NCBI GenBank assembly: GCA_009782175.1 | Contig: WRKR01000022.1 | Span: forward strand, 1 to 44,757 | Origin: Cystobacterineae bacterium | Lineage (GTDB): Bacteria; Myxococcota; Myxococcia; Myxococcales; Myxococcaceae | Reading direction: 5' to 3' | Length of the DNA stretch: 44,757 bases | Shown here: positions 26,373 to 43,967 of the stretch, one piece after another | How the letters are laid out: every line of letters begins with the position of its first letter | How positions within the stretch are numbered: position 1 is the stretch's first letter | Notes under the pieces: model-generated | Seen by the model: the letters and a program-made list of their open reading frames with translations, nothing else | Database searches by the model: none | What the model was told of the DNA's origin: nothing | Program-made: the position numbers and the translations under genes

Positions 26373-28493
26373 TCAGCGGGACAGCATAATTTGCGTAATA
26401 ACCTTTATTTGGATTTCGGGGGGCAACTCTTGATAGCTCATAACGGGCAGTGGCGGTGTAAACTCATGTGACAACAGGTTATACACATAACGTCGGACTT
26501 GCATTTTCGTGAGGATGACGGGCCGTTGTGCAGAAGGGCTCACAAAGCCGCATTCCCGCCGGACAGCGCCAACAATCTCCCGGGAAATATCTGGCTCTAT
26601 GGCCAAATAGGCAGAGCCGCTGGCTGAATATTTGATGGACTCTTGAATAATGCGCTCAATATCCCTGTCCAGAGAATAAACCAGCAAAGAAGTGGTTCCC
26701 CGGGCATGCTTGCTGGCAATAGGCCGCCTCAACGCCACGCGCACGTGCTCTGTCAGCATAATGCTGTCTGTCTCCTGGCTGTTTTCAGCAATGGCTTGCA
26801 AAATGCCTTGCATATCGCGAATGGAGACGCCCTCGCCCACAAGGCGTTTGAGAATTTCTGTCAACTTCACAATGCTGACCACCCTGGGGATGGTTTCCTT
26901 AATGAGCGTAGGCGAAATTTTCTCCAGCTGATCCAACATGAATTGGGCTTCTTGTACGCCTATAAAGTCCGGGGCATAGCGTTTGAGCACCGCCGACAAA
27001 TGCAAAATCAGAAAAGCGGGGATGTTCCATACGGTGGGGCCTATAGCGCGCACGGATTCTGCATGGGTGGATGGAACCCAGGCGGCGGCCTGCATGGTGG
27101 CCGGATTCACGCTGGGAGTCCCCGGAATCCCCATCATTTTCAGCCTGTTGACACTCTCGTTGGCGAGCACATGCTTGAGCACCACCTGCCCTAAAACAAG
27201 TGGAACCTCATTGATATAGATGGCATAGCCTGCCGCGGGCAGGCTTGAATTTCCGCGGACCCGGATGCTGGGAAAGCGCACGCCAAGCTCGACAAACAAG
27301 CCGTTGCGCATTTGCGGGATGAGCTCTGACATAAAGCGCCCTTTGTCCGCGCTGGGGTCTACAAACCTGACCAAATCCGGGGCCACTTCCAAAACCACTG
27401 GGGTAACCATGGGGACAAACATTTCGGAATCTGGATTTACAGGGGGCGGGGGCGCCGCGATGGAGGGTGCCACAACATCCTCATCCTCTTCTTCAGTGTC
27501 CACGAGTTTAGGTGGCGGTTTAATGCCTTCTTTCTCTTTTTTCATGAGCCAATAACCAAAGCCTCCCACAATGCCTCCCAGCAGAAGAAAGGGGACGGTG
27601 GGAAGCCCTGGAATAGCCCCAAACACCAACAGCATGCCGCCTGCAATGGCCAATGCCCTGGGGTATCGCGTCAGCTGTGTCGTCACATCCTTCCCCAGGT
27701 GTGTGCCCTCTTCTTCTCCTCCGACGCGTGTGACGATAATGCCGGCGGCCGTTGAAATGAGAATGGCAGGAATCATCCCCACCAAACCATCTCCAATGGT
27801 CAACAAAGTATATTTGCGGGCTGCAGCGTCAATGCCCATTCCCTTCTGCATCACGCCAATGGCGAGGCCTCCGACAATGTTCACCACCGTCACAATAATA
27901 TTGGCAATGGCATCGCCTTTGACAAACTTCATGGCGCCGTCCATGGCACCCATCAAAGCGCTTTCTCGCTCCAAGTCTCTGCGGCGACGCTTGCCTTCTT
28001 CTGTATCAATGACGCCGCCGCGCATATCCGCGTCAATGGACATCTGCTTGCCTGGCATGGCATCCAAAGTAAAGCGCGCGCCCACCTCAGAGACGCGCTC
28101 GGAGCCTTTGGCGATAACCAGAAAGTTCACAATAACCAGGATGATAAAAACAATGGCGCCGACGACAAAATTGCCTGCGGCCACAAAATTGCCGAAGGCG
28201 ACAACCACCTCACCCGGGTCGCCCGTGGAAAGGATTAAGCGCGTGGTTGAAACAGAGAGCGCCAGCCTATACAGCGTCGTCAGCAACAACAACGTTGGGA
28301 AAATAGAAAGGTTTAAGGCCTTGGGCACATAGAGGGAAATGAGCAAAATCAGCACCGACAAGCTGATGTTGATGGTCAACAAGACGTCCAGCAACATGGT
28401 CGGCAACGGAATCAACATCATTCCGATGATGGCAATGACCAACCCAGCTAAAACGACGTCGGAATATTTGCTAATGAACCGATTTTCGCTCAT
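26373..28493 (-). CDS. sctV: T3S export gate protein SctV (FlhA/YscV family)
   Basis: Major export-gate subunit (706 aa). The N-terminal half (about residues 15-325) has the multi-helix membrane domain with the FHIPEP-family signature around DAMPGKQMSIDADMRGGVID and the cytoplasmic loop GKRRRRDLERESALMGAMDG. The C-terminal half forms the nonameric ring that docks chaperone-substrate complexes. The ATG at 28493 (AGGGA upstream) is preferred over the TTG codon just before it. A terminator (28632-28668) separates it from Gly-rich twin B, so it must have its own promoter in the 28494-28640 spacer or depend on read-through. Confidence 0.96.
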   Translation of the reverse strand: MSENRFISKYSDVVLAGLVIAIIGMMLIPLPTMLLDVLLTINISLSVLILLISLYVPKALNLSIFPTLLLLTTLYRLALSVSTTRLILSTGDPGEVVVAFGNFVAAGNFVVGAIVFIILVIVNFLVIAKGSERVSEVGARFTLDAMPGKQMSIDADMRGGVIDTEEGKRRRRDLERESALMGAMDGAMKFVKGDAIANIIVTVVNIVGGLAIGVMQKGMGIDAAARKYTLLTIGDGLVGMIPAILISTAAGIIVTRVGGEEEGTHLGKDVTTQLTRYPRALAIAGGMLLVFGAIPGLPTVPFLLLGGIVGGFGYWLMKKEKEGIKPPPKLVDTEEEDEDVVAPSIAAPPPPVNPDSEMFVPMVTPVVLEVAPDLVRFVDPSADKGRFMSELIPQMRNGLFVELGVRFPSIRVRGNSSLPAAGYAIYINEVPLVLGQVVLKHVLANESVNRLKMMGIPGTPSVNPATMQAAAWVPSTHAESVRAIGPTVWNIPAFLILHLSAVLKRYAPDFIGVQEAQFMLDQLEKISPTLIKETIPRVVSIVKLTEILKRLVGEGVSIRDMQGILQAIAENSQETDSIMLTEHVRVALRRPIASKHARGTTSLLVYSLDRDIERIIQESIKYSASGSAYLAIEPDISREIVGAVRRECGFVSPSAQRPVILTKMQVRRYVYNLLSHEFTPPLPVMSYQELPPEIQIKVITQIMLSR

Positions 28494-28631
28494 CAAAAGT
28501 CCCTACACCGAAAGTGCCCGCATTCTGGCTTTTCTTACGAGCTTTCTTTGAAGTCAAACGAAAAGCCCACATGCGCATAAACATGCAGGCAGATGACAAC
28601 AACTTCTATCAGTGGCTTTCAAATTGAAAAC

Positions 28632-30594: not shown

Positions 30595-30876
30595 TCATTT
30601 TCTCTGCAAAGGCGCATTTTGTTGCGAAAGCGAATAAACAAAATTCAAAATTTCGGCCACAGCATCATAAAGGCTCTCCGGAATTTCTTGCCCAACTTCT
30701 ACGCGAAACAAAGCTTCTGCCAAACTCACATTGCGCAAGACAGGAATGTTATTTGCTTTCGCAATTTCTCGGATTTTATCAGCCCTCAGCTTCAACCCTT
30801 TGGCAATAACCCGCGGAGCACTGTCCTGCTCTTTGTCATATTTCAGCGCAATGGCAATTTCTGAGCCCTCATCCAT
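30595..30876 (-). CDS. Stand-alone SctU/FlhB C-terminal domain (FhlB/FlhX-like)
   Basis: A 93-aa protein aligned without gaps to the cytoplasmic C-terminal domain of SctU next door: ALKYDKEQDSAPRV is identical and ALFR-x-E-x-G-x-EIPE-x-LYDAVAE-x-LNFVY is shared. It begins right after the place of the SctU NPEH cleavage site and has no membrane segments and no Asn-Pro itself. Some flagellated bacteria carry such a fragment (FhlB/FlhX), which can replace the FlhB C-domain in substrate-specificity switching. Here it follows sctU by 43 nt and looks like a tandem duplication product. No Shine-Dalgarno is evident. Confidence 0.88.
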   Translation of the reverse strand: MDEGSEIAIALKYDKEQDSAPRVIAKGLKLRADKIREIAKANNIPVLRNVSLAEALFRVEVGQEIPESLYDAVAEILNFVYSLSQQNAPLQRK

Positions 30877-30919: not shown

Positions 30920-31975
30920 CTATTTGTTGTGGCTTAGGCCATAGACAAAATTCAAAACCTCAGCCACAGCATCATATAACTCTTCGGGAATTTCACTGCC
31001 TATCTCGATGCGAAACAAGGCATGCGCCAAGGGCACATTCCTCAATATGGCCACATCATGCCGACGCGCCAGCTCCTTTATGCTTTGTGCACGGCTGTCC
31101 AAGCCTTTGCAAAGCACACGCGGAGCACTGTCTTGCTCTTTGTCATATTTCAGGGCAACCGCCACATGCTCCGGATTGGTCACCACAAAGTCCGCATCCG
31201 CCACCGCCGCCATTTGGGCCCCCTCCATAATTTCATGATGCATTTGCTTTCGCTTGGCCTTGCTATGTGGATCTCCCTCAGACTCCTTATATTCACGCTT
31301 GACTTCCTGCATGCTCATCATCATCTTCTTGCGATAACTATAGTGTTGAAACCACACATCAAAAATCGCAAAAGCCAAATAGGCCAAGCTGACTTGCACC
31401 ACCAGCCTAAAAATCAACTCCCCCATCAGCGCCATGGTGACATTGGCTTCTTGAGTTACGGTCAGCGTAATGAATTTCAGCGCATCCTGAATCACCAGAT
31501 AAACCACAAAACCCGTAACACCCATCTTCACCAATGACTTGGGCAACTCCATGAGTTTTTGTTGAGAAAACAGATTTTTAAGGCCACTTAAAGGGTTGAG
31601 TTTGTCCAGCTTGGGCATCAATACTTTGGGGCTAAACAAAGCACCTACCAACAAAAAATCCGTCAAACTCCCCACCACCGCGCAGGAGATAACCACCGGC
31701 AAGGAAAGCAACAACACATTCCATATGCCCATGTTGAGCGCATCGCGTATGGCTTGAGAGATGTTTTCAGGCTGAGCAATGGCATCAAAAGTAAACAAAA
31801 ACATCATGTTAATGCGATCTTCCCAAAAGGGCCACATGCTTTTTAATACGCCCATGGCCACCACAAAACCCAAGACACTCTTTAAGTCCTGGCTCTTCCA
31901 AACATTGCCATCTTTGCGCGCATCCCGAATTTTTTTGGACGTGGGTTGTTCTGTTTTTTCTCCGCCTTCAGCCAT
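30920..31975 (-). CDS. sctU: T3S export switch protein SctU (FlhB/YscU family)
   Basis: 351 aa from the ATG at 31975 (AAAGGAG 7 nt upstream). The EKTEQPTSKK-like N-terminus, typical of the family, is followed by four membrane helices (about 32-210). A linker with KREYKESEGDPHSKAKRK and the autocleavage region NPEH (267-270) come next; most relatives have NPTH, so Thr is replaced by Glu while Asn-Pro is kept. The C-domain ends in FVYGLSHNK. SctU closes the export gate and switches substrate class after self-cleavage. It is downstream of sctT with a 16-nt gap. Confidence 0.96.
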   Translation of the reverse strand: MAEGGEKTEQPTSKKIRDARKDGNVWKSQDLKSVLGFVVAMGVLKSMWPFWEDRINMMFLFTFDAIAQPENISQAIRDALNMGIWNVLLLSLPVVISCAVVGSLTDFLLVGALFSPKVLMPKLDKLNPLSGLKNLFSQQKLMELPKSLVKMGVTGFVVYLVIQDALKFITLTVTQEANVTMALMGELIFRLVVQVSLAYLAFAIFDVWFQHYSYRKKMMMSMQEVKREYKESEGDPHSKAKRKQMHHEIMEGAQMAAVADADFVVTNPEHVAVALKYDKEQDSAPRVLCKGLDSRAQSIKELARRHDVAILRNVPLAHALFRIEIGSEIPEELYDAVAEVLNFVYGLSHNK

Positions 31976-31991
31976 CTTAAGCTCCTTTCCT

Positions 31992-32822
31992 TCAACCCAG
32001 AAGGCCGATGGCGCGACCAAAGCGCAGAAACATGACGTTGTATTCCTGGCTGAGGCGCCCCACCATCAGGTGCAGCGAAACAATAACCATCAACGCCGTC
32101 ACAGCAGGCTTTATTTGCATGGCCATGAAAAACACTTGTATTTGGGGAGCCGCGCGGTTGATGACGCCCAGCGCCGCTTCTGTGAGGAAAATAGCGAGCA
32201 ATATGGGTGAGGCCAAAATCAACCCAATGCGAAACAAATCGCCAAATACCCGCAGGACAACCTCAATAAACGGCCACATCCCCAGAGAAAAACGGGGAAA
32301 CTCATTCAAAGGTACCTTCAAAAAACTATCGGCCAAAGCTTCAATAACCCAATGGTGTCCATTCAGCGTTAAAAACAACACCACCACCAGTTGAAGCTTC
32401 AATGAAGAATAGAGGGTTACTCTGTGCTGTATTTGGGGCACAAACATTTGTGCCTGGGTGGAGCCTGAAAAAATGTCCATAAATGCCCCGGCTGCCCCAG
32501 CAAATTTAAAAACCAAATCCACAATAAACGCCAAAGAAAAACCAATAAAAACCTCTTTGAGCAACAAGGCCAAATAGGGAACCACCTCAATGGGAATTTG
32601 CGCCATCTGCTCGCTTAACGCAGGAAACAACAAAGCACCCAATATCACCCCCAAACCCATGCGCGCTTGCGCCGGAATGCTTTCTCCTCCAAGAAAAGGC
32701 GTAAAAATAACCACCGGCAACAATCGCGCCAGAATGAGCGCCATTGAAAAAACGGCCAGACTCAAGTCAACTCTAATTCCAAACTCGTTGCGCGCCTGAG
32801 TCAGAATTTCATCCAAATTCAT
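31992..32822 (-). CDS. sctT: T3S export gate protein SctT (FliR family)
   Basis: 276 aa, six or so membrane helices (for example MALILARLLPVVIFTPFLGG and FIGFSLAFIVDLVFKFAG). With SctR and SctS it builds the helical inner-membrane export channel. FliR-family features include the GxxIPAQARMGLG loop and a C-terminal LMVGRLSQE segment. The ATG overlaps the sctS stop by 4 nt (ATGA). Confidence 0.95.
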   Translation of the reverse strand: MNLDEILTQARNEFGIRVDLSLAVFSMALILARLLPVVIFTPFLGGESIPAQARMGLGVILGALLFPALSEQMAQIPIEVVPYLALLLKEVFIGFSLAFIVDLVFKFAGAAGAFMDIFSGSTQAQMFVPQIQHRVTLYSSLKLQLVVVLFLTLNGHHWVIEALADSFLKVPLNEFPRFSLGMWPFIEVVLRVFGDLFRIGLILASPILLAIFLTEAALGVINRAAPQIQVFFMAMQIKPAVTALMVIVSLHLMVGRLSQEYNVMFLRFGRAIGLLG

Positions 32823-33085
32823 GGAGCAACCATGTTGGGGAACTGATCGAAAATCCTAAAAGTAAACCTCAACAGCTGTGTCCCTATCCACCCACCGGCA
32901 ACGCCAAGCGTTCCAAATACGGCTATCAGCTTGGGAGCAAAGGAAAGCGTCTGCTCCTGAATTTGCGTGGTCGCTTGCACAACAGAAATGGTGACACCCA
33001 CAACCAAACTCATGAGCACAGGTAAAGCGGCTGTCAACAACACGAGATATAAGGCTTGCTGCGTTAAAAAAGTCAGTTGATGCAT
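32819..33085 (-). CDS. sctS: T3S export gate protein SctS (FliQ family)
   Basis: 88 aa with two membrane helices separated by the conserved polar loop (VQATTQIQEQTLSFAPKL), diagnostic of FliQ/SctS. Four copies wrap around SctR5-SctT in the export gate of known systems. It lies 15 nt after sctR and overlaps sctT. Confidence 0.96.
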   Translation of the reverse strand: MHQLTFLTQQALYLVLLTAALPVLMSLVVGVTISVVQATTQIQEQTLSFAPKLIAVFGTLGVAGGWIGTQLLRFTFRIFDQFPNMVAP

Positions 33086-33100
33086 GGCAATGCGACTCCG

Positions 33101-33895
33101 TCAGAGATAACCAGAAACCAAACCCTTGGCGATAAGATACCAGCCATCCACCAACACAAAAATGAGCAACTTAAATGGCATGGATATGGTTGTCGGCGAC
33201 AACATATGCATGCCCAAAGCAAGCAAAATGTTGGCCACCAACATGTCGATGACAATGAAAGGAATAAACAACAAAAACCCAATTTGGAAAGCCTGCTTGA
33301 GCTCTGAAACCACAAATGCGGGCGTCAATATGAGAAAATCATCCGGCCCAATGTCATCTCTGTCTGCCGGCGCCCTCATCTTGCGCGCAAGGCTATAAAA
33401 AAGCGTCTTGTCTTTGGCTGAAACTCGCTTTTTTAAAAAAGTCCGCAAAGGCTCTTTCGCTTTCTGGGCAGCCTCCATCAGCTGCCCTGCGGACTTCGCA
33501 GAAAGCAGCCCCTCGCTGTTCTGAATGTCGGCAGGGTTCGCCTCGCGGTACATCTCCTGGAGTGTCGGTGACATGATGTAGACCGTCAAAATAATCGCCA
33601 ACCCCGTAATCACTTGCGTAGGCGGAATTTGCTGCGTGCCCAGGGCTGAACGCACAATGGACAAAACCACTGAAATTTTGACAAAGCTGGTCACCATCAG
33701 CAGCACAAAAGGGGCAAGCCCCATCGCTGCCAAAACCAACAACAATACCATGGGCCGGCTGGCATAGGAGTCCGGCGTTAGTGTGTCTACGGACAAAGAC
33801 TGAGGGCCGCCACGCCTCTGCGCCAAAACCCACATGGGAAATATGGACGCTATCAACAACCCAATTCTAAAAAAACGCGCATTCCAAGTCCTCAC
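33101..33895 (-). CDS. sctR: T3S export gate protein SctR (FliP family)
   Basis: 264 aa beginning with GTG (33895) that overlaps the FliO-like stop (GTGA). An N-terminal cleavable-type signal (FFRIGLLIASIFPMWVLAQ) resembles flagellar FliP, which is often made with one; injectisome SctR usually lacks it. FliP-family signatures VLLMVTSFVKISVVLSIVR, LGTQQIPPTQV and FIPFIVIDMLVANILLALGM are intact. Core pore subunit of the export gate. Confidence 0.95.
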   Translation of the reverse strand: MRTWNARFFRIGLLIASIFPMWVLAQRRGGPQSLSVDTLTPDSYASRPMVLLLVLAAMGLAPFVLLMVTSFVKISVVLSIVRSALGTQQIPPTQVITGLAIILTVYIMSPTLQEMYREANPADIQNSEGLLSAKSAGQLMEAAQKAKEPLRTFLKKRVSAKDKTLFYSLARKMRAPADRDDIGPDDFLILTPAFVVSELKQAFQIGFLLFIPFIVIDMLVANILLALGMHMLSPTTISMPFKLLIFVLVDGWYLIAKGLVSGYL

Positions 33896-34677
33896 GACTC
33901 TCCCTCGCTAAATGGCTCTTTGCTTGTCTTTCGCTCCAAGAGCTTCTTCAGAAACAAACTGGGCTCACCAGACGGCTTGTTTTTGTTGCTGCTGAGCACC
34001 TGCTCCACCTCTTCTGTGTTCAGTTTTGATAAGACAGTCAAAACCCTCTCCCCGTTGGACAACAAAAAATAGTCGTTGGCAACTTTGACAAGCAATAAAC
34101 CTTTTCTCGCATCAACAGAAACCCGCTCTATAATGGAAATGACGCGCTGACCTCTGCCATCCCTCAATTTTAACAAACGCTTCCCACCCCAATTCAACAA
34201 AATATAAGCCAGGAGTACAACTCCCGCGAGCACCAGCAACGTTTGCAGCAACATCCACCCCAGCCCCGGCTCATATGGAGAAAGCTCAGCACCCAGCGAA
34301 GAAAGCTCAGTGTCAGCAGGAGGAAGCTTGGCGTCAACGGGAGAAAGCTCAGTGTCAGCAGGAGGAAGCTTGGCACCAACGGGAGAAAGCTCAGTGTCAG
34401 CGGGAGGAAGCTTGGCGCCAACGGGAGAAAGCTCAGCGTCAGCGGGAGGAAGCTTGGTGCCAACGGGAGAAAGCTCAGTGTCAGCGGGAGAAAGCTTGGC
34501 GTCAACGGGAGAAAGCTCAGTGTCAGCAGGAGGAAGCTTGGCGCCAACGGGAGAAAGCTCAGTGTCAGCGGGAGGAAGCTTGGCGCCAGCGGGAGAAAGT
34601 TTGGCGTTTGGCTCTGGAAGGGCTTCTGGGCTTAAGGCTTCTGCGCTGGCAAGCGCAATAACGAGCAGGGACAGCAT
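33892..34677 (-). CDS. FliO-like export-gate assembly protein with periplasmic 14-residue repeats
   Basis: 261 aa from the ATG at 34677 (AGGAG 5 nt upstream). A TTG at 34713 would add a basic n-region and a more usual signal peptide. After the signal, residues 27-124 are seven tandem copies of LSPVGAKLPPADTE plus a partial eighth. One membrane helix follows (MLLQTLLVLAGVVLLAYILL, about 139-158), then a cytoplasmic domain with RVISIIERVSVDARKGLLLVK, as in FliO. FliO helps assemble FliP rings in flagella; injectisomes normally have no counterpart. Its place directly before sctR is the flagellar order O-P-Q-R. Confidence 0.85.
   Translation of the reverse strand: MLSLLVIALASAEALSPEALPEPNAKLSPAGAKLPPADTELSPVGAKLPPADTELSPVDAKLSPADTELSPVGTKLPPADAELSPVGAKLPPADTELSPVGAKLPPADTELSPVDAKLPPADTELSSLGAELSPYEPGLGWMLLQTLLVLAGVVLLAYILLNWGGKRLLKLRDGRGQRVISIIERVSVDARKGLLLVKVANDYFLLSNGERVLTVLSKLNTEEVEQVLSSNKNKPSGEPSLFLKKLLERKTSKEPFSEGES
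34306..34599. repeat. Seven tandem 42-bp units inside the FliO-like gene
   Basis: Each 42-bp unit encodes LSPVGAKLPPADTE with few changes (G/D, P/S, T/A). Because 42 is a multiple of three, all other frames remain open across it. Low divergence between units indicates recent expansion or gene conversion; copy number may vary between strains. Confidence 0.95.
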
Positions 34678-34693
34678 GCTTGCTCCTGCAAAT

Positions 34694-34945
34694 TTATGAG
34701 CCTTCAACGGCAATCAGCCTTATGCCCAATTGTCCGTCGAACTCGACCAGTTCACCTTGTCCAACTGTCTTTCCATTGACAACCAAGTTCAATGGATCTG
34801 AGGCAAGTCGACCTAGATCGATCACATGCCCTACTTTCATTTCAACAACCTCTTCTATGGTCACTGGAATGCGTGCAAGCTCGACAACAAGCCTCAAAGG
34901 CACATCGCTCAACAGTGGTGCAGCACTCAGTTGGTTTGGGTCCAT
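34694..34945 (-). CDS. Internal translation product SctQ-C (SpoA2 domain)
   Basis: The internal in-frame ATG (34943-34945, MDPNQLSAAPLLSD) is preceded at 5 nt by AAAAGGGG. The 83-aa product is exactly the C-terminal SpoA domain. In several known T3S systems, such a short form is made by internal initiation and is needed with full-length SctQ. The call here rests on position and ribosome-binding site only. Confidence 0.55.
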   Translation of the reverse strand: MDPNQLSAAPLLSDVPLRLVVELARIPVTIEEVVEMKVGHVIDLGRLASDPLNLVVNGKTVGQGELVEFDGQLGIRLIAVEGS

Positions 34946-36007
34946 TATTTCCCCTTTTCTTTTGCCCCTATCAGAAAGATTGTGGTCAAGGCTTTCTGAT
35001 ACTGTGCCTAGAGTTATTTTTTCAACCTCTGCTTTATACCCTCTCCCGTCAAAACCAAGCTGACAATCCAAATGGCCCGAAAAACCCGCGCCAATTCGCA
35101 ATTCAGCGCTTCCGTCCGCTCGCTTATCCGGTCTCAAAGTGAGCTTATCTAAAAGTACAGTCGCCCCTGGGCGAAGCCCTTCATATTCAGCCTTGGGAAT
35201 CTCCGCATGCCCAATCTCCACGCGCAAAGACAAATTGGGCAATGCAAGGCGATCTTTTGCTCGAATCAAATTTTGCTGCATTCTATAGGCTCGAACAGGT
35301 GCATCCGCATGCGGCTGCAATTTGGACAACACTGTCGCAGGAATAAAAAACCGAAAACATCCCTTATGTCCATCGACGCTGGCCGACAAACTCATCAACA
35401 CCATATGCGTCTCTGAGGCCATCAACGGCATAACGGCTTTGCTGCTGCTAAAAATATTGTCCAGGCGAACATGAACCTTCCCAGCCCCAGCGTTGACAAA
35501 CATCGTCCTTAAAACCTGCAAAGCAAGAAATTGAAGAATGCCTTCTTCCAGCTCCGTCAATGCACGAATTTCAACGGATTCACTGTTGGCGCCAAGCAAC
35601 AGCTCAACCGCTTTGTGTGCAAAGCCAAGCTCAATTTCCCAAAAACCCCTCGGCTGGTATGGCCGAAATGACAACACCGCCAAAAAAGTGGGCTCAGCAA
35701 CGCAGGACGGCAACGCAGAAACAGGCACAACTTGAAAATAATCAAAAGTCAGCTGAACATCTTCGCTCTGAAGACAATTTTTGAGTGTTTGAGCTATTGC
35801 CTCCAACATCTCAAAAGGCTCAGCAAATGCCGGGAATAACCACTCCAAACTCTTAAAGAGTTGTGCCTCTTGACGAGAAACTTTGGGGAGGTTGGGAAAA
35901 AACTCTACCTTTTTCCAAGAACACATTGAAAGCAGATCATTCTGCGTCAGCAGCATGGTGCTGTCAGCTGCCCGCCGAGAAGGGGTTATTTTGCTTGTAT
36001 CTGTCAC
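34694..36007 (-). CDS. sctQ: T3S sorting-platform / C-ring protein SctQ (FliM/FliN family)
   Basis: 437 aa, GTG start overlapping the sctP stop (GTGA). The N-terminal part (about 1-240) resembles the FliM/SctQ middle region only loosely. Two SpoA domains follow: SpoA1 at about 255-340 (LSLRVEIGHAEIPKAEYEGL) and SpoA2 at about 362-437 (RLVVELARIPVTIEEVVEMK ... GQGELVEFDGQLGIRL). SctQ forms the cytoplasmic pods or ring that sort substrates. An internal ATG at 34945 with its own GGGG Shine-Dalgarno would give the SpoA2 domain alone, as known for YscQ and SpaO. Confidence 0.93.
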   Translation of the reverse strand: MTDTSKITPSRRAADSTMLLTQNDLLSMCSWKKVEFFPNLPKVSRQEAQLFKSLEWLFPAFAEPFEMLEAIAQTLKNCLQSEDVQLTFDYFQVVPVSALPSCVAEPTFLAVLSFRPYQPRGFWEIELGFAHKAVELLLGANSESVEIRALTELEEGILQFLALQVLRTMFVNAGAGKVHVRLDNIFSSSKAVMPLMASETHMVLMSLSASVDGHKGCFRFFIPATVLSKLQPHADAPVRAYRMQQNLIRAKDRLALPNLSLRVEIGHAEIPKAEYEGLRPGATVLLDKLTLRPDKRADGSAELRIGAGFSGHLDCQLGFDGRGYKAEVEKITLGTVSESLDHNLSDRGKRKGEIMDPNQLSAAPLLSDVPLRLVVELARIPVTIEEVVEMKVGHVIDLGRLASDPLNLVVNGKTVGQGELVEFDGQLGIRLIAVEGS

Positions 36008-37023
36008 GAGTTCATCTCAAATTTCAGATGGGTCAGCGTCAAGCCCCGCACATCCAACGCCGTATGCAAAGCGTCACTTTGCTCTTCAACCACCTTTAAA
36101 GCATTCTTGTCGGAACCAGAGAAAACCACGCTTATTTTTCCACCGGATGATGAAACCCGCATAGAAAGCCCGGACAAAACATCCGAGCGAAAATCAATCT
36201 GAAATTCTGCATTGCCTGCTTTGTTGGTTCCAACACGCACCCGCTCAACAATTTTTTGAGCAATCTCGCTGGCAATCCTCCTTAGGCGCTCAGAATCACC
36301 TGTGGGCTTTGGACGAACAAGGGGGGCTGGCTCCATGAGGGCGGGATTGGTGTTGAGCAACCTCCCCAAATCCTCCTGGGGCTCTTTGTTTGAGCGCTTA
36401 AGCTCAGCGGCTTGACGCATATCTGAAGTCTTCTCTTCTGCCCTTATACTTTTGCTCTCTTCTCTGGCTGCAGTGTATTTCTTGGCATCCGATTTGGCTT
36501 GAGCAGAACGGCCCTCTACTTGGCTCTCCGTCTCTGAAGCAGACTTCTTCCCCACCTCTGCTTGCTCTCGTGTTTCTGTCTTGGAAAGGTTTCTATCGCC
36601 TTGCTGAAGTTTTGTCGCTTGCTCCTGGCTGTGCTGCGTGCTCTGTTCTTTCAGCTGCTTCTGGGAGAGGGGCTTATTGTTTTCTGAAGACGCTTTTGCG
36701 GATTCACCTTCTTGCCCCATCAACTCTCGCAACACCGCATTGCTTTCTCCTCCAGCGCGTGCATATCTGCCCAACACGCGCTCTTTGTCCGCTTGCATTC
36801 GCGCGGCCGAGGAGGGATCTGCCTTTTCTAAAAATTTTGCATGAGCCTCCGAGGCATGTCCTCGGTTAATGTTTTGCCCCTGCTGTTTTTGGCTATCGCT
36901 AACAAGTCGAGAAAAAACAGTGTTTGTTGCTTGTTTGTCAACTCGGAGCTTGTCTTCTATGCGCCTTTGCTCCGCAACGCGCTCAGCCTGGCGAGCTGCC
37001 CCATCATCATCAATTCTGCTCAT
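36004..37023 (-). CDS. sctP: T3S needle/hook-length regulator SctP (FliK family)
   Basis: 339 aa. The first about 240 residues are polar, Gln/Lys/Glu/Ser rich and probably extended, as expected for a molecular ruler. The C-terminal about 95 residues (from LRRIASEIAQKIVERVRVG to LTLTHLKFEMNS) match the FliK/Flg_hook substrate-switch domain that contacts SctU. It overlaps both neighbours by 4 nt (ATGA with sctO, GTGA with sctQ). Assignment rests on the C-domain pattern plus gene order. Confidence 0.8.
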   Translation of the reverse strand: MSRIDDDGAARQAERVAEQRRIEDKLRVDKQATNTVFSRLVSDSQKQQGQNINRGHASEAHAKFLEKADPSSAARMQADKERVLGRYARAGGESNAVLRELMGQEGESAKASSENNKPLSQKQLKEQSTQHSQEQATKLQQGDRNLSKTETREQAEVGKKSASETESQVEGRSAQAKSDAKKYTAAREESKSIRAEEKTSDMRQAAELKRSNKEPQEDLGRLLNTNPALMEPAPLVRPKPTGDSERLRRIASEIAQKIVERVRVGTNKAGNAEFQIDFRSDVLSGLSMRVSSSGGKISVVFSGSDKNALKVVEEQSDALHTALDVRGLTLTHLKFEMNS

Positions 37024-37520
37024 GTTTTTCCCCCTCTCCTTCTTTGTAAGTGCAAGGCGTTGCCAATCTCCTCTTGCACAAGCTCTTCTCGCATTTGCCG
37101 TTCATAACGCACTTGTTTAGCCCATTGCTCTTTGTGTTTCTCAATGGCTTTCTTCTCTTTGGCCGCCTCTGCCATTTCCGACCTTTTTTGCTCCATCCAC
37201 TGCTCCGCTCGCTTCACATTTCCTTCTTGCGCCCCTATCTCCAGCTCCAGCTTCGCCTCCTCATCCTTCAGCCTTTGCTCAAAACGCTCAAATTGCTCAA
37301 ATGCGTTGGCCTGAAGCGCTTGCGCGGATAAGACGGATTGCATATGAGCAAGCACCTTCTCTTTGCGTTCCTGTTGCCGCCTTGTCAAATGGGAACGCAT
37401 CTCTTCTAAAATTTTTTTCTGCTTGTGCAAAGCCTGCATCGCCTCAGAAAAAACCTGCTTTGCAGCTTCCTCCGCTCGTTCCCGCATTTCTAGCAAAGTT
37501 TGCAGTCGATAAGCTGGCAT
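37020..37520 (-). CDS. sctO: T3S ATPase stalk protein SctO (FliJ/YscO family)
   Basis: 166 aa, almost entirely one long antiparallel coiled coil (LQTLLEMRERAEEAAKQVFS start, basic tail). FliJ/SctO sits in the central pore of the SctN hexamer, like the gamma subunit of F1, and links it to SctV. Size, coiled coil and position right after sctN are diagnostic. Confidence 0.88.
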   Translation of the reverse strand: MPAYRLQTLLEMRERAEEAAKQVFSEAMQALHKQKKILEEMRSHLTRRQQERKEKVLAHMQSVLSAQALQANAFEQFERFEQRLKDEEAKLELEIGAQEGNVKRAEQWMEQKRSEMAEAAKEKKAIEKHKEQWAKQVRYERQMREELVQEEIGNALHLQRRRGGKT

Positions 37521-37535: not shown

Positions 37536-38852
37536 TCACGCTTCAAATAAAGCAACGAGTGCTGCTGCTGTGTCTTCAAAACTGACACTGCTGTCCGTGG
37601 ACTGTTTCAAAAAACCGATGATAGCGTCATATTTGTCAATGGCATAGTCCGTTCGTGGATCTGTCCCATATTGATAGGCGCCAAGCAAAATCAAATCCCT
37701 TTGTTTTTCATAGGTTGCAAGGGCTTCCCGAAGTTTTCCTGCGGCAACTTTGTGCTTTTTGTCGACCACTTGATTCATGACGCGGGACAAGGAAGCCAAA
37801 ACATCCATGGCCGGCCATTGGTTGCGCTCTGCGAGGGTGCGGTTTAAAATGAAGTGTCCGTCCAGAATACCGCGTACTTCGTCGGCAATGGGCTCTTCCA
37901 TGTCGCCACCGGCAACCAAAACCGTATAAATGGCCGTGCATTTGCCTTTCTCAGAATTCCCGGTCCTCTCGAGGATTTTGGGGAGCATGGAAAACACAGA
38001 GGGAGGATATCCCTGGCGTGCAGGGGGCTCTCCTATGGCCAAACCAATTTCACGCTGTGCTCTTGCAAGGCGCGTCACGGTATCCAGCATGAACAAGACG
38101 TTGCCCCCACGCTCTCGAAAATATTCTGCAATGGAGGTAGCCACAAAAGCAGCACGCAAACGCACCAAAGAAGGTTGGTCTGAGGTTGCGCAAACCACAA
38201 TAGAACGCTTAAGCCCCTCTCCCAGCGCATCTTCCACAAACTCCAAAACCTCGCGACCGCGCTCGCCAATCAGTGCAATAACGGCCAACTCGGCAGCCGT
38301 GTTGCGCGCAATCTGCCCCATCAACGTAGACTTGCCAACACCAGAGCCTGCAAAAAGCCCTATACGTTGTCCTTCGCCCACCGTCAGCAACCCATCAATG
38401 CAACGCACCCCCAAAGGCAATGGCCTCAAAATACGTTGGCGCTTGTATGGATCTGGACACTCCCGGTCCACGGACCATTCTATCAACCCCTCTTTAGGCA
38501 AAGGACGACCATCAATGGGCTCTCCCAAACCATTGAGTACGCGACCCAACAAGGCATCTCCTACGCGAATGTTCAAAGGGCGACCTGTGGAAAGCACTTC
38601 ACTGTCTGGGCCTATGCCTTGCAGTTCTCCCAGAGGCATCATCATTACCTCATCCCCTTGAAAACCCACCACCTCCGCTTTGACAGCTGCACGGTTGCGC
38701 CCTTTTATAAAACACAACTCACCCACACGCACGTTGGGCACAGCCGCCTTAATCACCAAACCTGTCAGCTCTGTGACACGCCCACGCACGCCGACCAATT
38801 GCGCATTCCTGAGCAAGTTTTGATAGCGCCCCCAGGGAATTGCAAGGTCCAT
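37536..38852 (-). CDS. sctN: T3S ATPase SctN (FliI/YscN family)
   Basis: 438 aa from the ATG at 38852; a TTG two codons earlier overlaps the sctL stop. The N-terminal beta-barrel (about 1-90) is followed by the RecA-type core with Walker A GSGVGKST (169-176), the VLFMLDTVTRLARAQREIG Walker B region, and the GEPPARQGYPPSVFSMLP signature that separates T3S ATPases from F1-beta. The hexamer unfolds substrates and releases chaperones. Catalytic motifs are complete. Confidence 0.97.
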   Translation of the reverse strand: MDLAIPWGRYQNLLRNAQLVGVRGRVTELTGLVIKAAVPNVRVGELCFIKGRNRAAVKAEVVGFQGDEVMMMPLGELQGIGPDSEVLSTGRPLNIRVGDALLGRVLNGLGEPIDGRPLPKEGLIEWSVDRECPDPYKRQRILRPLPLGVRCIDGLLTVGEGQRIGLFAGSGVGKSTLMGQIARNTAAELAVIALIGERGREVLEFVEDALGEGLKRSIVVCATSDQPSLVRLRAAFVATSIAEYFRERGGNVLFMLDTVTRLARAQREIGLAIGEPPARQGYPPSVFSMLPKILERTGNSEKGKCTAIYTVLVAGGDMEEPIADEVRGILDGHFILNRTLAERNQWPAMDVLASLSRVMNQVVDKKHKVAAGKLREALATYEKQRDLILLGAYQYGTDPRTDYAIDKYDAIIGFLKQSTDSSVSFEDTAAALVALFEA

Positions 38853-38854
38853 TC

Positions 38855-39556
38855 TCAATCCGCCTTCCCCAAAGCATCCTCTTCAAACAGAATACGCAGT
38901 GCTCTAAACTGAGTTTCCAGTTGAGCGTCAATGGTCCCAAACTCGGTTTGCACAATGCAACCTCCGGGCTGCACCTCCAGATCGTCCCGAATGGCAATGT
39001 CAACACTGCGCCCAATCAGCTCTATAAGCTCAGGCCGCCTCTCTCGAAGCAATTTGGCATCCCGCGGGTGAACGCGCAAAAGCATGGCCTTGGCTGTTCG
39101 CAAATTCTCAATGGCGTTTGCACAAATTTCCAAAAGCAGCTGCGGCTCCCTCTCCAAATCCCTGCCAATCATTTTTTCGGCAATCTGGCAGGCCAACTCA
39201 ATAAGCTCCTTTTTGGCCTCTGCCAACATACTGCCTGCTTGCATCTTCGCCTTGGCCAACTCCGTGGCGGCCTGAGCTGCAGCTTCTTCCAACGCTTCCT
39301 CACGTGTTTCTTGAAAAACAAGTGCGCGCTGGCGCTCAGCATCCTCTAACAACTCTCGGGCTTTTTGTTCAGCCTCTTCGATGATGCCTTTGGCTTTCGA
39401 GCGTGCATCCACCTCTTCGGGACGCACAACAATGCCACGTATGGGGGGGGAACGCATGGCTGCCGCAGGTTTAAGGGGTGATGGATCGCTGGACAAACCC
39501 CCAGGAATAATTTTTCCTGAGCTTCTGAGTGGCCCCTTGTTGTCAATATCTGCCAT
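38855..39556 (-). CDS. sctL: T3S ATPase regulator SctL (FliH/YscL family)
   Basis: 233 aa. N-terminal about 45 residues are disordered. A long Ala/Glu/Lys-rich helix (about 50-125: ARSKAKGIIEEAEQKARELL and on) leads into the FliH C-domain (about 130-230, with LACQIAEKMIGRDLEREPQL and VQPGGCIVQTEFGTIDAQLE). The latter, DxxLxPGGCxIET-like, is a hallmark of the family. SctL dimers link SctN to SctQ. GGAG lies 8 nt before the ATG. Confidence 0.94.
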   Translation of the reverse strand: MADIDNKGPLRSSGKIIPGGLSSDPSPLKPAAAMRSPPIRGIVVRPEEVDARSKAKGIIEEAEQKARELLEDAERQRALVFQETREEALEEAAAQAATELAKAKMQAGSMLAEAKKELIELACQIAEKMIGRDLEREPQLLLEICANAIENLRTAKAMLLRVHPRDAKLLRERRPELIELIGRSVDIAIRDDLEVQPGGCIVQTEFGTIDAQLETQFRALRILFEEDALGKAD

Positions 39557-39585: not shown

Positions 39586-41310
39586 CTACCCCTTGCGAGT
39601 GGGTTTCTCTCCAATATTCCTTTGACCATGAGTTGCCTGCGCTGTCCTCTCATTCCCTTGCCTTAAGGCTCCTGCTCCCCCTGGCATAGGCCTGCGAGGA
39701 GCAGACTGTGGTGAGGGCATGCGAATGCCCGCTGCCTTGCCCGTGGGCATATTTGGGGTCGAAGGCGACACCGGACGCCTTGCTTCTGTTATTTCAGGCG
39801 AGGGTGATGGGCGCCTTGTTTCTGCTGCCTTAGGCAGGGGCAACGGGCGCTTGGCTTCTGTTATTTCATACGAGGGTGACGGACGCCTTGCTCCTGCTGT
39901 TTTAGGCGGGGGCGACGGACGCCTTGCTTCTGTTATTTCAGGCGGGGGCGACGGACGCCTTGCTTCTGTTATTTCAGGCGGGGGTGACGGACGCCTTGCT
40001 TCTGTTGTTTTAGGCGGGGGCAACGGGCGCTTGGCTTCTGTTATTTCAGGCGAGGGTGATGGACGCCTCACATGTGCCGTTTTGGGCGGCTGCGCTGCCG
40101 AGCGCTCTATGGTGTGTGGTTTTGGCAGTCGATGGCTGCGGTTTGCAGCTGGAGAAGCCATGGGGAGGTTTCCCCTCTCTCCACCAGGGCCTACAAGCCT
40201 TGAGGGTGTAGGCTTCGGAAGCTTTTCAGCTGGCACGCGAGAGGGTTTCATGGCTGGCGGCGCTGCCAAACGCGCAGAGCCCACACTTGGAACAGAACCC
40301 AGGGGAGCAGGTTTCGCTCGAGCAGCTGCCTTAGGAGGTGGAGTGACAGGGATTATTTTGGGTTTGGACAAAACGAGTGGGCGCTCAACAAAGCCCCGCT
40401 TCGCCAAAAATTCAAGCTGATCCAAAATGTCAGCTCTTCCACCATCTCCCTGGACTTTCTTGCCTTTTTCTTCATCCAACCAATGAGAGAGCAGCTTGCC
40501 CAATTCCCCTTCATGCCGCCGTGCCATTTTAGAAGCAAAATCGGCGGATTCTGACAGACAAGCCCTCATAATGCGCCGTACACCTGCGCTTCGAAGCGCC
40601 GAGGAGGAATTTGCCGTTCCACCATATAACTCTAACAATCTACGCGAGTCATTGGCCTGCAGTGGACGCATTTGGCCAGCTGCATCACAAGCTTTTTGAG
40701 CCAATATCCTCTGGTCCGGAGGAAGTGAATCAAAAAAACTCTGCCGTTCGCCACTGGGCAACCCCGCCAATGCTGTTGCAAACACACGAGCGCCCATTCT
40801 GTCACAAACCGTAATAAGCTCTCTGGCCTGCAAACCCAAAATGTCTTCAAACCTAAAGAGGGCGCTGATGGAAGCGTTTTGAAGTTCTTCTTCAAGTTTC
40901 CAGCGCACAAAGGAAAACACTTCAGGGCTGGGTTCTCTGCGCAGTTGTGTTTTTTTAGAGCTGGGAAGTGCAGCTTGAACGGAATTCGCCAGCAAGGAAG
41001 GCAAAGCGCGCAAAACCACTTCAGCAACAACGGGCTTCTCTTTTGCCAACAATCCAGCCAGGTGTTCCGGTTCTGCTGTCGCAAGCCTCCGGCGTCGCAT
41101 GCTGAGCAGGCGACGCATTTCACGTACCAAGAAAGGTATCCTCTGCTCCTTGGGGATGGAGCGAAAAGCTTCAGTGCGGTGCTTTAAAAGCTCTGCGTCT
41201 TCTTCAGGCAAAAACTGAAACGCTTCATCGGCTCCCGCTCCACCAAAAACGACCGATGCCAAAAGCAACATGGTTTGTCGTTTGGAAAGTGAAGCAAAAT
41301 AGTGTTCCAC
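39586..41310 (-). CDS. FliG-like protein in the sctK/fliG position, with Pro-rich repeat tail
   Basis: 574 aa, GTG start. Residues 1-70 resemble FliG_N (LSKRQTMLLLASVV ... FQFLPEEDAELL). Residues 80-145 resemble FliG_M (EKPVVAEVVLRALPS in place of EHPQ..., SPEVFSFVRWKLEEEL). Residues 152-230 align without gaps to the FliG_C motor domain (FEDILGL ... ALAGLPSGERQSFFDSLP). The ARM-C segment between M and C appears missing, and the Asp-Asp of the torque helix is Gln-Ala (161-162). After about residue 310 the protein is Pro/Ala/Arg rich, with nine 12-residue repeats (410-517). In known injectisomes this slot holds SctK. Family assignment is from remembered consensus patterns. Confidence 0.78.
   Translation of the reverse strand: MEHYFASLSKRQTMLLLASVVFGGAGADEAFQFLPEEDAELLKHRTEAFRSIPKEQRIPFLVREMRRLLSMRRRRLATAEPEHLAGLLAKEKPVVAEVVLRALPSLLANSVQAALPSSKKTQLRREPSPEVFSFVRWKLEEELQNASISALFRFEDILGLQARELITVCDRMGARVFATALAGLPSGERQSFFDSLPPDQRILAQKACDAAGQMRPLQANDSRRLLELYGGTANSSSALRSAGVRRIMRACLSESADFASKMARRHEGELGKLLSHWLDEEKGKKVQGDGGRADILDQLEFLAKRGFVERPLVLSKPKIIPVTPPPKAAARAKPAPLGSVPSVGSARLAAPPAMKPSRVPAEKLPKPTPSRLVGPGGERGNLPMASPAANRSHRLPKPHTIERSAAQPPKTAHVRRPSPSPEITEAKRPLPPPKTTEARRPSPPPEITEARRPSPPPEITEARRPSPPPKTAGARRPSPSYEITEAKRPLPLPKAAETRRPSPSPEITEARRPVSPSTPNMPTGKAAGIRMPSPQSAPRRPMPGGAGALRQGNERTAQATHGQRNIGEKPTRKG
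39760..40083. repeat. Nine tandem 36-bp units in the FliG-like gene
   Basis: Units encode (E/K)(I/T)TEARRPSPPP with alternation between EITEA-type and KTTEA-type copies. The run is in-frame and close to identical between some units, indicating recent expansion. The encoded segment is basic and Pro-rich, hence extended. Confidence 0.93.
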
Positions 41311-41352: not shown

Positions 41353-42126
41353 CTATCCTGTCCTCTTTGCAGCACGGCTCTTTAGGAAAATCCATATGGA
41401 GACGCCGGCCACCAGCAAAATTAAAAAACCAGCTCCGCCTACCACCACCAGACGAAATTGGTCCGCGCTGGATTTGGTCATTTGGAAACCAAACACTGTC
41501 TGCAGGCGATCTTTTAGATCTAACTCAGCCTGGGGAGGCGCCGCAAGCACCATGAGGACTTGAACCGCTTCAGGCGCCAACTGTGGCACTGCGGCTGCCA
41601 CAAAACGCCGTATGGAAGGCTCATCCATGGGAGGCTTTTCTTCTTCTCTGGACGTGCGATATTTAATAAACACCGACGCTGAAGGCCTGGGCCTCTCCGC
41701 GTCAGGCACCAGATCGTTAGACTCGGGCAGCATGACCAAAGTCCTCACCTCTAAAATTCCAGGGACTCGGTTGAGCGCATTCGAAATTTCCCCTCCCAAA
41801 GCCTCAAGCAGCATGGCCCGCTCCTCCGTCTGTGTTGGAATCATCCCCTTATTCTTTTTAAACAGGGAAAGCCCGTCCGCACGAACCCGAGGCAAAGAGT
41901 TGTCCGTCAGCAACTGCACAGCGTTGACGGCATCGGCTTTAGGAACGCTGATAATATAGGTAGCTTCGTCAGCTTCAACGCGCTGTTTAGACGCCTGAAT
42001 GCTGTTGCGTTGCAGCAACACATAAATTTCGTTGGCTTCTTCTTCGGATAGATCATGCTGCAAATTCTCAACACAAGCGACCAAACCAATGCCCAACAAG
42101 GCAACAAACCCATATTTTCGGAACAT
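41353..42126 (-). CDS. sctJ: T3S inner-membrane ring lipoprotein SctJ (YscJ/FliF family)
   Basis: 257 aa from the ATG at 42126; the longer open frame to 42204 lies in the terminator region. MFRKYGFVALLGIGLVAC is a lipoprotein signal with lipobox LVAC (Cys about residue 18). The periplasmic RBM domains follow (YVLLQRNSIQASKQ..., LEGELSRALN-like LLEALGGEISNALNRVPGIL, then SVFIKYRT). One C-terminal membrane helix ends the protein (VVGGAGFLILLVAGVSIWIF, about 226-247). Lipid anchoring and shortness mark the injectisome type (SctJ), not flagellar FliF, which is larger and not lipidated. No Shine-Dalgarno is evident. Confidence 0.95.
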   Translation of the reverse strand: MFRKYGFVALLGIGLVACVENLQHDLSEEEANEIYVLLQRNSIQASKQRVEADEATYIISVPKADAVNAVQLLTDNSLPRVRADGLSLFKKNKGMIPTQTEERAMLLEALGGEISNALNRVPGILEVRTLVMLPESNDLVPDAERPRPSASVFIKYRTSREEEKPPMDEPSIRRFVAAAVPQLAPEAVQVLMVLAAPPQAELDLKDRLQTVFGFQMTKSSADQFRLVVVGGAGFLILLVAGVSIWIFLKSRAAKRTG

Positions 42127-42184
42127 AAGCTTTGCGAGACTACACGAAGCTTCCAAAAAAAGCGGCCCAAAAGAAGCAACTTTT

Positions 42185-42215
42185 AAAAAAAAAGCGGCCC
42201 CCAAGTGCCGCTTTT
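42185..42215 (-). terminator. Intrinsic terminator between sctI and sctJ
   Basis: AAAGCGGC (42191-42198) pairs with GCCGCTTT (42207-42214) around an 8-nt loop, and the minus strand continues with a run of nine T. It lies inside the operon, after sctI and before sctJ, so it could lower expression of downstream genes relative to the rod protein. Confidence 0.85.
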
Positions 42216-42287: not shown

Positions 42288-42851
42288 TCAGACTTGGGTT
42301 TTCAAGGTATCCTTGAGGCCTGAAGTCGTTTTTTCAACAATTTTGCTCGTCAAGTCCATTTCCTGGCTATATTTGTACATGCTGGCCTGGAGGCTGAGCA
42401 GCTCCGCGTTGGAAAACTTCTTTCCTTGCAATGCAGAGCCGATGAGCTTGTCCAAAGAGGCTTGCCCTTTTTCTACGCCATCCATTAAATTTGCAAGGCT
42501 TCGGGTGCTTTTTGAAGAGGGCTGCTGCGTTTGCGTTGCGCTTTCTGCCTTGCGCGGTTTTGAAGTCTCGCTCAAGGCCTGAGTTCTTATCTTATTCATG
42601 CGAGATCTATCGGTTTTTTCAACCTGCCCCGCATCCCGCACAACATCCGCTTTGTTCACCGATTCGCTGGCTTGGACTTGAGAAACCGACTGGTTTTGGC
42701 GAATATGGCCAGCCTTGTTTTCTGCCTGCGTGTTGAGTGCTTCATCAAATTTGCTTGGGCCCTGTTTGGCCTGTTGGACTGCTTGCTCTGGAAGCTTTTG
42801 CTGTGCTGCCTGTGCTTGAGCTGCTGCAATCCCTGCGAGTGGTCCCGCCAT
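42288..42851 (-). CDS. sctI: T3S inner rod protein SctI (YscI family)
   Basis: 187 aa. The first about 140 residues are Ala/Gln/Lys rich and disordered, without Sec signal, as for T3S-exported proteins. The last about 45 match the SctI/YscI rod pattern: FSNAELLSLQASMYKYSQEM then DLTSKIVEKTTSGLKDTLKTQ. AAGGAGAG lies 7 nt before the ATG. Its beginning overlaps the sigma-factor gene by 107 nt in another frame. The position equals that of fliE in flagellar operons. At 187 aa it is longer than typical SctI (about 90-120). Confidence 0.88.
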   Translation of the reverse strand: MAGPLAGIAAAQAQAAQQKLPEQAVQQAKQGPSKFDEALNTQAENKAGHIRQNQSVSQVQASESVNKADVVRDAGQVEKTDRSRMNKIRTQALSETSKPRKAESATQTQQPSSKSTRSLANLMDGVEKGQASLDKLIGSALQGKKFSNAELLSLQASMYKYSQEMDLTSKIVEKTTSGLKDTLKTQV

Positions 42852-43569
42852 TGTCTTCTCTCCTTTTTAAAGTCATCTCTCCTGATTGTCGCTCATCCTC
42901 AACTAAAAGTTGCTTCAATTTTTCAATGGCGCGCGCATGTAGCCGAGAAGCCCAGCTTTTTGACTGCCCAATTGCTGCTCCCGCCTCCTCTAAAGTCTTC
43001 GACTGAAAATAATAGGCCTGGAGCAACCGACGCTCTTTCTCTGACAGCATTCCCATGGCTTTTCGAATGCGCCTTTTGGTTTGCTCAAGCTCTAAATGCT
43101 CTTCGGCAGACAGTCGCTCGCTGGCAATCTGTAGGCTTTCTGCCGCATCTAAACTGGCCGCATAGACAATGGCCAAGCCCGAAACAGCATTCGAAATTTC
43201 ACCCACATCTTCTGCAAAAGAGCTCTGCGAAAGAGCGTCTCTGTCCGAAAGGTTGCTTAAATAGGCATTGGAGCGCTCAGCACCGAGGAGGTTGGGCTCT
43301 GAGCTGCTGTTGCTGCCCAAAATGCCCATCTTCCTTAGCCCGTCAAAAATGGCTCCCTTCACTCGATAATGGGCAAAGGTTAAAAAATTGGCACCCATGC
43401 TTGGATCAAAACGCTCTGCTGCCTCCAACAAGCCCATATGCCCATAGGCCATCAACTCATCCAAATCCATATGAGAATGAAATTGTCGGCATATACCCGC
43501 AGCGATGGACCTCACATAGGGCCCATATTTTTCCAGGAGCTGATTTTTGTTCTCCCCAAACTTTTCCAA
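42745..43569 (-). CDS. FliA/WhiG-like sigma factor (sigma-28 type)
   Basis: About 274 aa; the TTG at 43569 has AGGAG 6 nt upstream, while another TTG at 43596 overlaps the preceding gene. Region 2 (DLDELMAYGHMGLLEAAERF then FLTFAHYRVKGAIFDGLRKM) and region 4 (LSEKERRLLQAYYFQSKTLEEAG..IGQSKSWASRLHARA) fit the FliA/WhiG group; region 3 (about 95-150) is diverged. The last about 45 residues are Ser/Thr/Gly-rich and overlap sctI by 107 nt; they are not part of the usual fold. It likely directs transcription of the T3S locus, as FliA does for late flagellar genes. Confidence 0.9.
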   Translation of the reverse strand: MEKFGENKNQLLEKYGPYVRSIAAGICRQFHSHMDLDELMAYGHMGLLEAAERFDPSMGANFLTFAHYRVKGAIFDGLRKMGILGSNSSSEPNLLGAERSNAYLSNLSDRDALSQSSFAEDVGEISNAVSGLAIVYAASLDAAESLQIASERLSAEEHLELEQTKRRIRKAMGMLSEKERRLLQAYYFQSKTLEEAGAAIGQSKSWASRLHARAIEKLKQLLVEDERQSGEMTLKRREDNGGTTRRDCSSSSTGSTAKASRASSPTGQTGPKQI

Positions 43570-43577
43570 AGCGACTC

Positions 43578-43967
43578 CTATTCCGCCTTCGCCCAAATTT
43601 TTTCAAGCGTTTCCTGAAGTCGAGGATCTCCTTCAATATCCTCTGCTATCTTATTTGTGAGTGTCTTTGAGTTTGTACGAACAATTTCACGAAGAATGTT
43701 GGCAACCAAACGCCGCGTTGCTTCTTCTTTCGTCTTAATGGCACCCTCTCGAAACTGCCGGACAATTTCAGCCGCCTGAGCAATAACAGGATCGCTCACG
43801 CTCACAATGGCTCCTACATCTCCCAACCTCACCGCGGGCGCAATAGGCTCAATCCCCGCCCTAAATGCAGCGCCTGTCGCTTTTGGAGCCACACCCGTTC
43901 CTCGGGCCATACCCGCCCCTCGAGCTGCACCGGCTCCTTTCTTGCCGCCTATCTTGCCAACAGACAT
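43578..43967 (-). CDS. Unknown protein next to the sigma factor (129 aa)
   Basis: I do not recognise this family. Residues 1-45 are Gly/Ala/Arg rich and basic (MSVGKIGGKKGAGAARGAGM). Residues 55-129 are helical (SVSDPVIAQAAEIVRQFREG ... RRLVANILREIVRTNSKTLT). GGGGAG lies 8 nt before the ATG. It lies directly upstream of the sigma gene, separated by 8 nt from the preferred TTG. FlgM-type anti-sigma factors often neighbour FliA, and the helical C-terminal part is about the right size, but similarity to FlgM is too weak to claim. It could equally be a secreted substrate. Confidence 0.6.
   Translation of the reverse strand: MSVGKIGGKKGAGAARGAGMARGTGVAPKATGAAFRAGIEPIAPAVRLGDVGAIVSVSDPVIAQAAEIVRQFREGAIKTKEEATRRLVANILREIVRTNSKTLTNKIAEDIEGDPRLQETLEKIWAKAE

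Follow-up and report, generated by a model that had tools for sequence, protein, structure and literature searches.

The described system closest to the locus considered here is the needle-less type III secretion system (T3SS*) of Myxococcus xanthus (mxan_2434-2464; PMC10433427), which is functional and required for prey lysis (PMC12075869). Abby and Rocha (2012; PMC3459982) reported that FliE and FliG are absent from the myxobacterial systems, which they positioned as the basal lineage of the non-flagellar T3SS. In the injectisomes, SctK binds SctD and SctQ (PMC8211105; PMC13160099). We describe here a gene in the sctK position of a T3SS* locus whose product is likely to be derived from FliG and to serve, without rotating, as an adaptor of the cytoplasmic ring in the needle-less T3SS* of myxobacteria.

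The window, that is the whole stretch of DNA analysed, is a complete contig of 44,757 bases and belongs to a genome of 2.7 Mb that is 99.95% complete. Its nearest relatives are two MAGs, the isolate names of which suggest termite guts, followed by Myxococcaceae such as Myxococcus, Archangium and Corallococcus, and the locus is therefore to be grouped with the needle-less T3SS* of the M. xanthus type. A Myxococcus-type T3SS* locus is also carried by a record titled Comamonas sp. KCTC 72670 (L078, BNCN01000014.1), which may be misnamed or contaminated.

In the direction of transcription, the locus (the coordinates of the Sct, FliG-like and FliO-like genes are all on the minus strand) starts with a TPR protein, a small protein, a FliA/WhiG-type sigma factor and SctI, followed by the FliF-like SctJ (41353..42204), the FliG-like ORF of 574 amino acids with a GTG start (39586..41310) and the FliH-like SctL (38855..39556; family scans). 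Downstream are encoded the ATPase SctN (37536..38858), which passes the SctN equivalog cut-off with 625 versus 605 bits, SctO (FliJ/YscO-like, 37020..37520) and SctP (FliK/HpaP-like, 36004..37023), both assigned by family scans, SctQ (34694..36007) with a FliM middle domain (Pfam FliM at 35.1 bits, cut-off 27) and a FliO-like protein (33892..34713; Pfam FliO at 36.5 bits, cut-off 22). SctR (33101..33895), SctS (32819..33085) and SctT (31992..32822) were named by reading the sequence together with flagellar operon order, and SctU (30920..32020) by reading the sequence, rather than by family scan; after a second short FlhB-type ORF and more small genes follows SctV (26373..28496). The second FlhB-type ORF (30595-30876, 93 amino acids) comprises the FlhB/SctU C-terminal domain only and is present in many relatives too. 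The sigma factor gene (42745-43596), near the operon head, is conserved with the T3SS* and probably encodes the locus' own regulator. Elsewhere in the same genome, a secretin and several FHA-domain genes (G000:C2:89636-94377) are a possible partner Kil/Tad system of the T3SS*.

FliO is normally a flagellar protein. A FliO-like gene is present in 34 loci, each time between SctQ and SctR; the FliO-like protein of the window possesses tandem repeats in its N-terminal part. SctJ precedes the FliG-like gene in 50 of the 51 loci holding SctJ, SctL follows it in 44/45, and the gene order matches that of fliF-G-H-I-J-K in E. coli and that of the flagellar operon in a related myxobacterium. The locus has the appearance of an operon for flagellar export and the C-ring from which rod, hook, filament and stator have been lost. 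As the FliG-like ORF is the sole FliG_C protein found in the genome (99.95% complete) and the sole FlhA/SctV homologue found there is SctV, the FliG-like protein serves no flagellum.

The FliG-like ORF is a true FliG relative. Its residues 140-223 match Pfam FliG_C with 32.4 bits (cut-off 23.3), a match shared by all 30 family members examined (E up to 1; best 7.5e-12), while NCBIfam FliG weakly matches the middle domain ARM-M at residues 75-122 (E 0.003). When the family profile was run against PDB sequences, FliG was the sole convincing family (best E 6.6e-6), and hhalign against 21 flagellar FliGs of Myxococcota gave a probability of 97.9, an E of 5e-13 and a score of 97.4, to be compared with 14.9 +/- 2.4 (maximum 21.4) for 60 column-shuffled controls and 24 for the reversed profile. 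Each of the two domains is significant alone (ARM-M, E 4.6e-10; FliG_C residues 148-224, E 4.5e-6). With an AlphaFold model of 335 amino acids (mean pLDDT 81.7), FliG structures fill the top Foldseek ranks, with structural Z up to 8.3 against full-length FliG. The rmsd of the full-length matches is large, mostly 8-18 A, which in the model reflects a different domain arrangement. Taken individually, ARM-M superimposes on the FliG ARM-M fold with Z 8.0 and 2.8 A over 72 residues, and the C-terminal domain, modelled separately with a pLDDT of 93.4, on FliG with Z 7.2 and 3.1 A over 90 residues. The preliminary description, which had recognized a FliG homologue in the sctK position from the sequence, is thus borne out by Pfam, PDB sequence, hhalign and fold comparison, and by the conservation, across homologous loci, of FliG_C and of the placement of the gene between sctJ and sctL. 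Two distant relatives, L100 (9645-12097) and L101 (9595-11985), pass Pfam FliG_M; in these, the FliG-like gene lies beside an SctJ that has an N-terminal extension, with no other T3SS genes nearby, and the genome of L101 (G068, 92% complete) has zero FlhA/SctV matches.

With respect to domain layout, the protein has retained the middle and C-terminal parts of FliG, has lost ARM-C and carries additions. The ARM-M equivalent (residues 73-146, 40873..41094, minus strand, as for all segments of the gene), assigned by hhalign and fold match, is followed by the FliG_C core (residues 148-224, 40639..40869), which harbours the FxF motif and is supported by Pfam, hhalign and residue mapping. The N-terminal region (residues 1-72, 41095..41310), four helices in the model, is a possible FliG_N equivalent. 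Of the proposed alignment with FliG N, M and C parts, M and C hold, but FliG_N is not significant alone, as the profile match of residues 1-73 (score 21.7) falls within the shuffled controls (up to 25.6). The register proposed for the start of the motor domain, in which FRFEDILGLQARE aligns without gaps with FxFEDLxxLDDR of flagellar FliG, is reproduced by the hhalign alignment. Between ARM-M and FliG_C about 42-48 FliG residues are missing; in the hhalign alignment about 42-43 FliG residues have no partner at this point, and the structural alignments skip from residue 187 of Thermotoga maritima FliG to about 236, in agreement with the suspected deletion of ARM-C. In L100 and L101, too, little separates the FliG_M match from the FliG_C match. 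Within the FliG_C fold, the 90 aligned residues extend across a 161-residue span of the model, the last helix being preceded by an insertion of approximately 65-70 residues; this insertion (about residues 225-285, 40456..40638), delimited by structural alignment, is conserved in the family and has no FliG counterpart in hhalign, which gives no significant match after residue 225. The equivalent of the last FliG_C helix, DILDQLEFLAKRGFVERP (residues 286-314, 40369..40455), is assigned by structural alignment, which ends at model residue 311 and FliG residue 327, and is not significant by sequence alone in hhalign. The protein ends in a disordered, Pro/Arg-rich tail that contains tandem repeats (residues 320-574, 39586..40353); among relatives, the tail differs in length by hundreds of residues, with a median of about 220 residues past residue 320.

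The occupation of the sctK position by a FliG relative leads to the question whether SctK itself descends from FliG, as had been suggested. Where SctK came from had not been settled when the injectisome was derived from the flagellum; a 2014 review put 'FliG (?)' beside SctK (PMC4045390). The route would lead via the T3SS* form, with loss of ARM-C and insertion into FliG_C, followed by loss of the N-terminal and ARM-M parts; we regard such a descent as possible, at somewhat less than an even chance. That the T3SS* protein represents a living intermediate to canonical SctK (YscK/PscK/OrgA/HrpB4) is to be held just as tentatively. In its favour, the SctK-type gene is flanked by sctJ and sctL in Mycetohabitans, Rhizobium, Phyllobacterium, Ensifer and Bosea, the SctV of the T3SS* groups, weakly (82/78), with canonical and not with flagellar proteins, and, FliG structures aside, the full model matches the fold of PscK best (6uie; Z 5.8, 4.1 A, 120 residues), with model residues 152-311 aligned to PscK 59-206. 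The other non-FliG fold matches are MgtE, a fold relative of FliG, with Z 4.9 and the rest at or below 3.2. Against an intermediate, however, a Z below 8, as the 5.8 of PscK, can reflect a common arrangement in helical proteins, and PscK is not among the fold candidates for the C-terminal domain alone, which does not exclude PscK. Sequence profiles stay within the shuffled controls for T3SS* versus SctK (hhalign score 18.0, shuffles up to 21.1) and equally for FliG versus SctK (19.9, shuffles up to 20.9). The SctK set used is narrow, 13 mostly rhizobial sequences, of which an 8-sequence subset recognises PscK in the PDB with E 0.002; no YscK or OrgA_MxiK family match was obtained in 30 T3SS* members. 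The suggested descent of SctK from FliG is therefore supported by fold and synteny, but not by sequence profiles. A spaced Gly-Gly motif common to the T3SS* insertion and SctK was discarded, as it ranked 862 of 57,232 windows in a full scan. If the descent is true, SctK is a descendant of FliG and the sorting platform a dismantled, non-rotating flagellar C-ring.

The T3SS* is a non-flagellar system, as the SctN equivalog cut-off is passed and SctV lies outside the flagellar clade. In the SctV/FlhA tree, flagellar FlhA forms a separate clade (100/100), as do the T3SS* proteins (98/97), which join the canonical ones at 82/78. The lack of FliG in myxobacterial systems, as reported previously, does not hold for the Myxococcaceae T3SS* family; relatives of FliG and FliO in the locus call for a revision of this statement and fit the basal placement. 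Alternatively, FliG might have entered a system that was non-flagellar by then, through a later transfer from a flagellar operon. Many Myxococcota indeed carry a flagellar FliG and the phylum has further FliG-derived proteins, but the locus has preserved the flagellar gene order over its full length, FliO included, and conservation of the protein spans the Myxococcaceae, with distant relatives beside SctJ in other families of the phylum, which makes a later recruitment unlikely.

Other FliG_C proteins of Myxococcota combine a membrane segment and a periplasmic part with a FliG M+C region (hhalign against FliG: probability 99.2, E 1e-19); in one of them the periplasmic part has a weak FliF_C match below the cut-off. 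These proteins, which resemble natural fusions of a FliF-like periplasmic and membrane part with FliG M+C (L087 8917-10464; L089 9678-11363; L090 8582-10204; L091 9862-11742; L092 9918-11408; L094-L099), are adjoined by MotA and MotB relatives in 11 of 12 loci, the exception, L088, being a truncated contig of 3.5 kb, and T3SS export genes were not detected in the fetched flanks of the twelve loci. They may be compact stand-alone rotor-stator cassettes independent of flagella. Proteins of the phylum with intermediate FliG scores were considered as evolutionary intermediates and rejected, as they adjoin MotAB and not T3SS genes. A 'short' myxobacterial T3SS encodes a small ORF between SctJ and SctQ (L107 15606-16145; L109 4155-4700; L108 16461-17504), which may, on weak grounds, be a remnant of the FliG-like adaptor, its hhalign score being 21.6 with shuffles up to 17.8 and a probability of 2%.

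Loss of torque generation, as proposed in the preliminary description, had been deduced from the absence of the Asp pair of DDRSIQR. This pair maps to D243-D244 of E. coli FliG and not to the torque pair D288-D289 and is variable among flagellar FliGs of the same phylum, therefore its absence proves nothing. Informative are other positions, among them K264 and R297, which, from established FliG genetics, we take to be stator-facing torque residues as well. R281 and D288-D289 of FliG contact the stator (PMC12505986). Flagellar FliGs of the phylum have K264 and R281 without exception and an acidic residue at both D288 and D289, whereas in the T3SS* family K264 is replaced by Ala in 34/35 proteins, the R281 position is mostly Asp, D288 mostly Lys or Arg, and D289 Ala, Ser or Val; the R297 position is basic in most T3SS* relatives and Pro in the window. 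As K264, R281, D288 and D289 are lost or reversed and MotA/MotB relatives are absent from the 52 T3SS* loci, the protein has very probably lost torque generation, as judged from these residues and neighbours. Continued service as a stator-driven rotor subunit would be consistent with the retained FliG_C fold and with five MotA/TolQ/ExbB-family genes in the genome, but is highly improbable with the torque residues lost or charge-reversed throughout the family and no MotAB relative in the loci. Finally, that the similarity reflects a generic ARM/MgtE_N-like helical fold and not descent from FliG, with MgtE_N weakly matching 16/30 members, is scarcely credible in view of the far stronger FliG matches, two domains in FliG order, the fliG gene position and the hhalign shuffle controls.

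The FliG-like protein is predicted to act, most likely, as a static adaptor holding the FliM-like SctQ ring. Sequence features point to SctQ as the likely ring partner: the SctQ of the window possesses a FliM middle domain above the Pfam cut-off, which is absent in two canonical SctQ proteins tested, and the GGxG motif of FliM (LLGGAGE), a known FliG contact, is kept in the SctQ of most relatives shown. In the genus of the window, its own SctQ included, GGxG is degenerate, and of the FliM-contacting EHPQ motif of FliG only the Glu is invariant in the T3SS* family while HPQ is eroded; the FliG-FliM-type interface has therefore drifted. ARM-M would bind the FliM-like middle domain of SctQ and the protein could thereby anchor the SctQ-SctL-SctN sorting platform beneath the inner-membrane ring, with no role in torque. 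On the membrane side, SctJ, as read from the sequences, ends about 10-25 residues past its last membrane helix, and it gave no match to FliF_C. Because SctJ is without this C-terminal FliG-binding domain of FliF, a contact of the flagellar FliF-FliG type is doubtful, and the scaffold link between SctJ and SctQ proposed previously is unlikely to be of flagellar type. The membrane-side contact is thus probably of another kind; a different protein of the inner ring, SctD-like, may be bound by the N-terminal region or by the FliG_C domain with its insertion, comparable to the binding of SctD by SctK in injectisomes. SctD was not found in the window, which ends at the contig end just upstream of the locus, in flanks, or among ORFs tested upstream of the locus in relatives.

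The FliG-like protein is a probable missing component of a machine required for prey lysis, and survival of FliG in a secretion machine for predation helps to explain the descent of secretion machines from flagella. With a FliG relative in the sctK position, the question of SctK origin becomes directly testable in Myxococcus, a predator that is genetically tractable.

Compared with the T3SS* of M. xanthus, the locus is of the same kind, the M. xanthus homologue (L073) of the FliG-like protein showing 48% identity and having the same neighbours; in the open-licence literature, the component lists of this system (PMC10433427; PMC3459982) name neither FliG nor SctK. In comparison with flagellar FliG, ARM-C is gone, torque charges are lost or reversed, FliG_C harbours an insertion, a long disordered tail is present, and neither a flagellar FliG nor FlhA was found in the host genome, whereas the sequence and fold of ARM-M and FliG_C, the FxF motif, the gene position between FliF-type and FliH-type genes and a FliM-domain partner in the same locus are shared. 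In comparison with SctK (YscK/PscK/MxiK/OrgA/HrpB4), there is no detectable sequence similarity and no SctK family match, and the ARM-M domain is unmatched in PscK, but the gene occupies the same position between sctJ and sctL and residues 152-311 of its product resemble the PscK fold.
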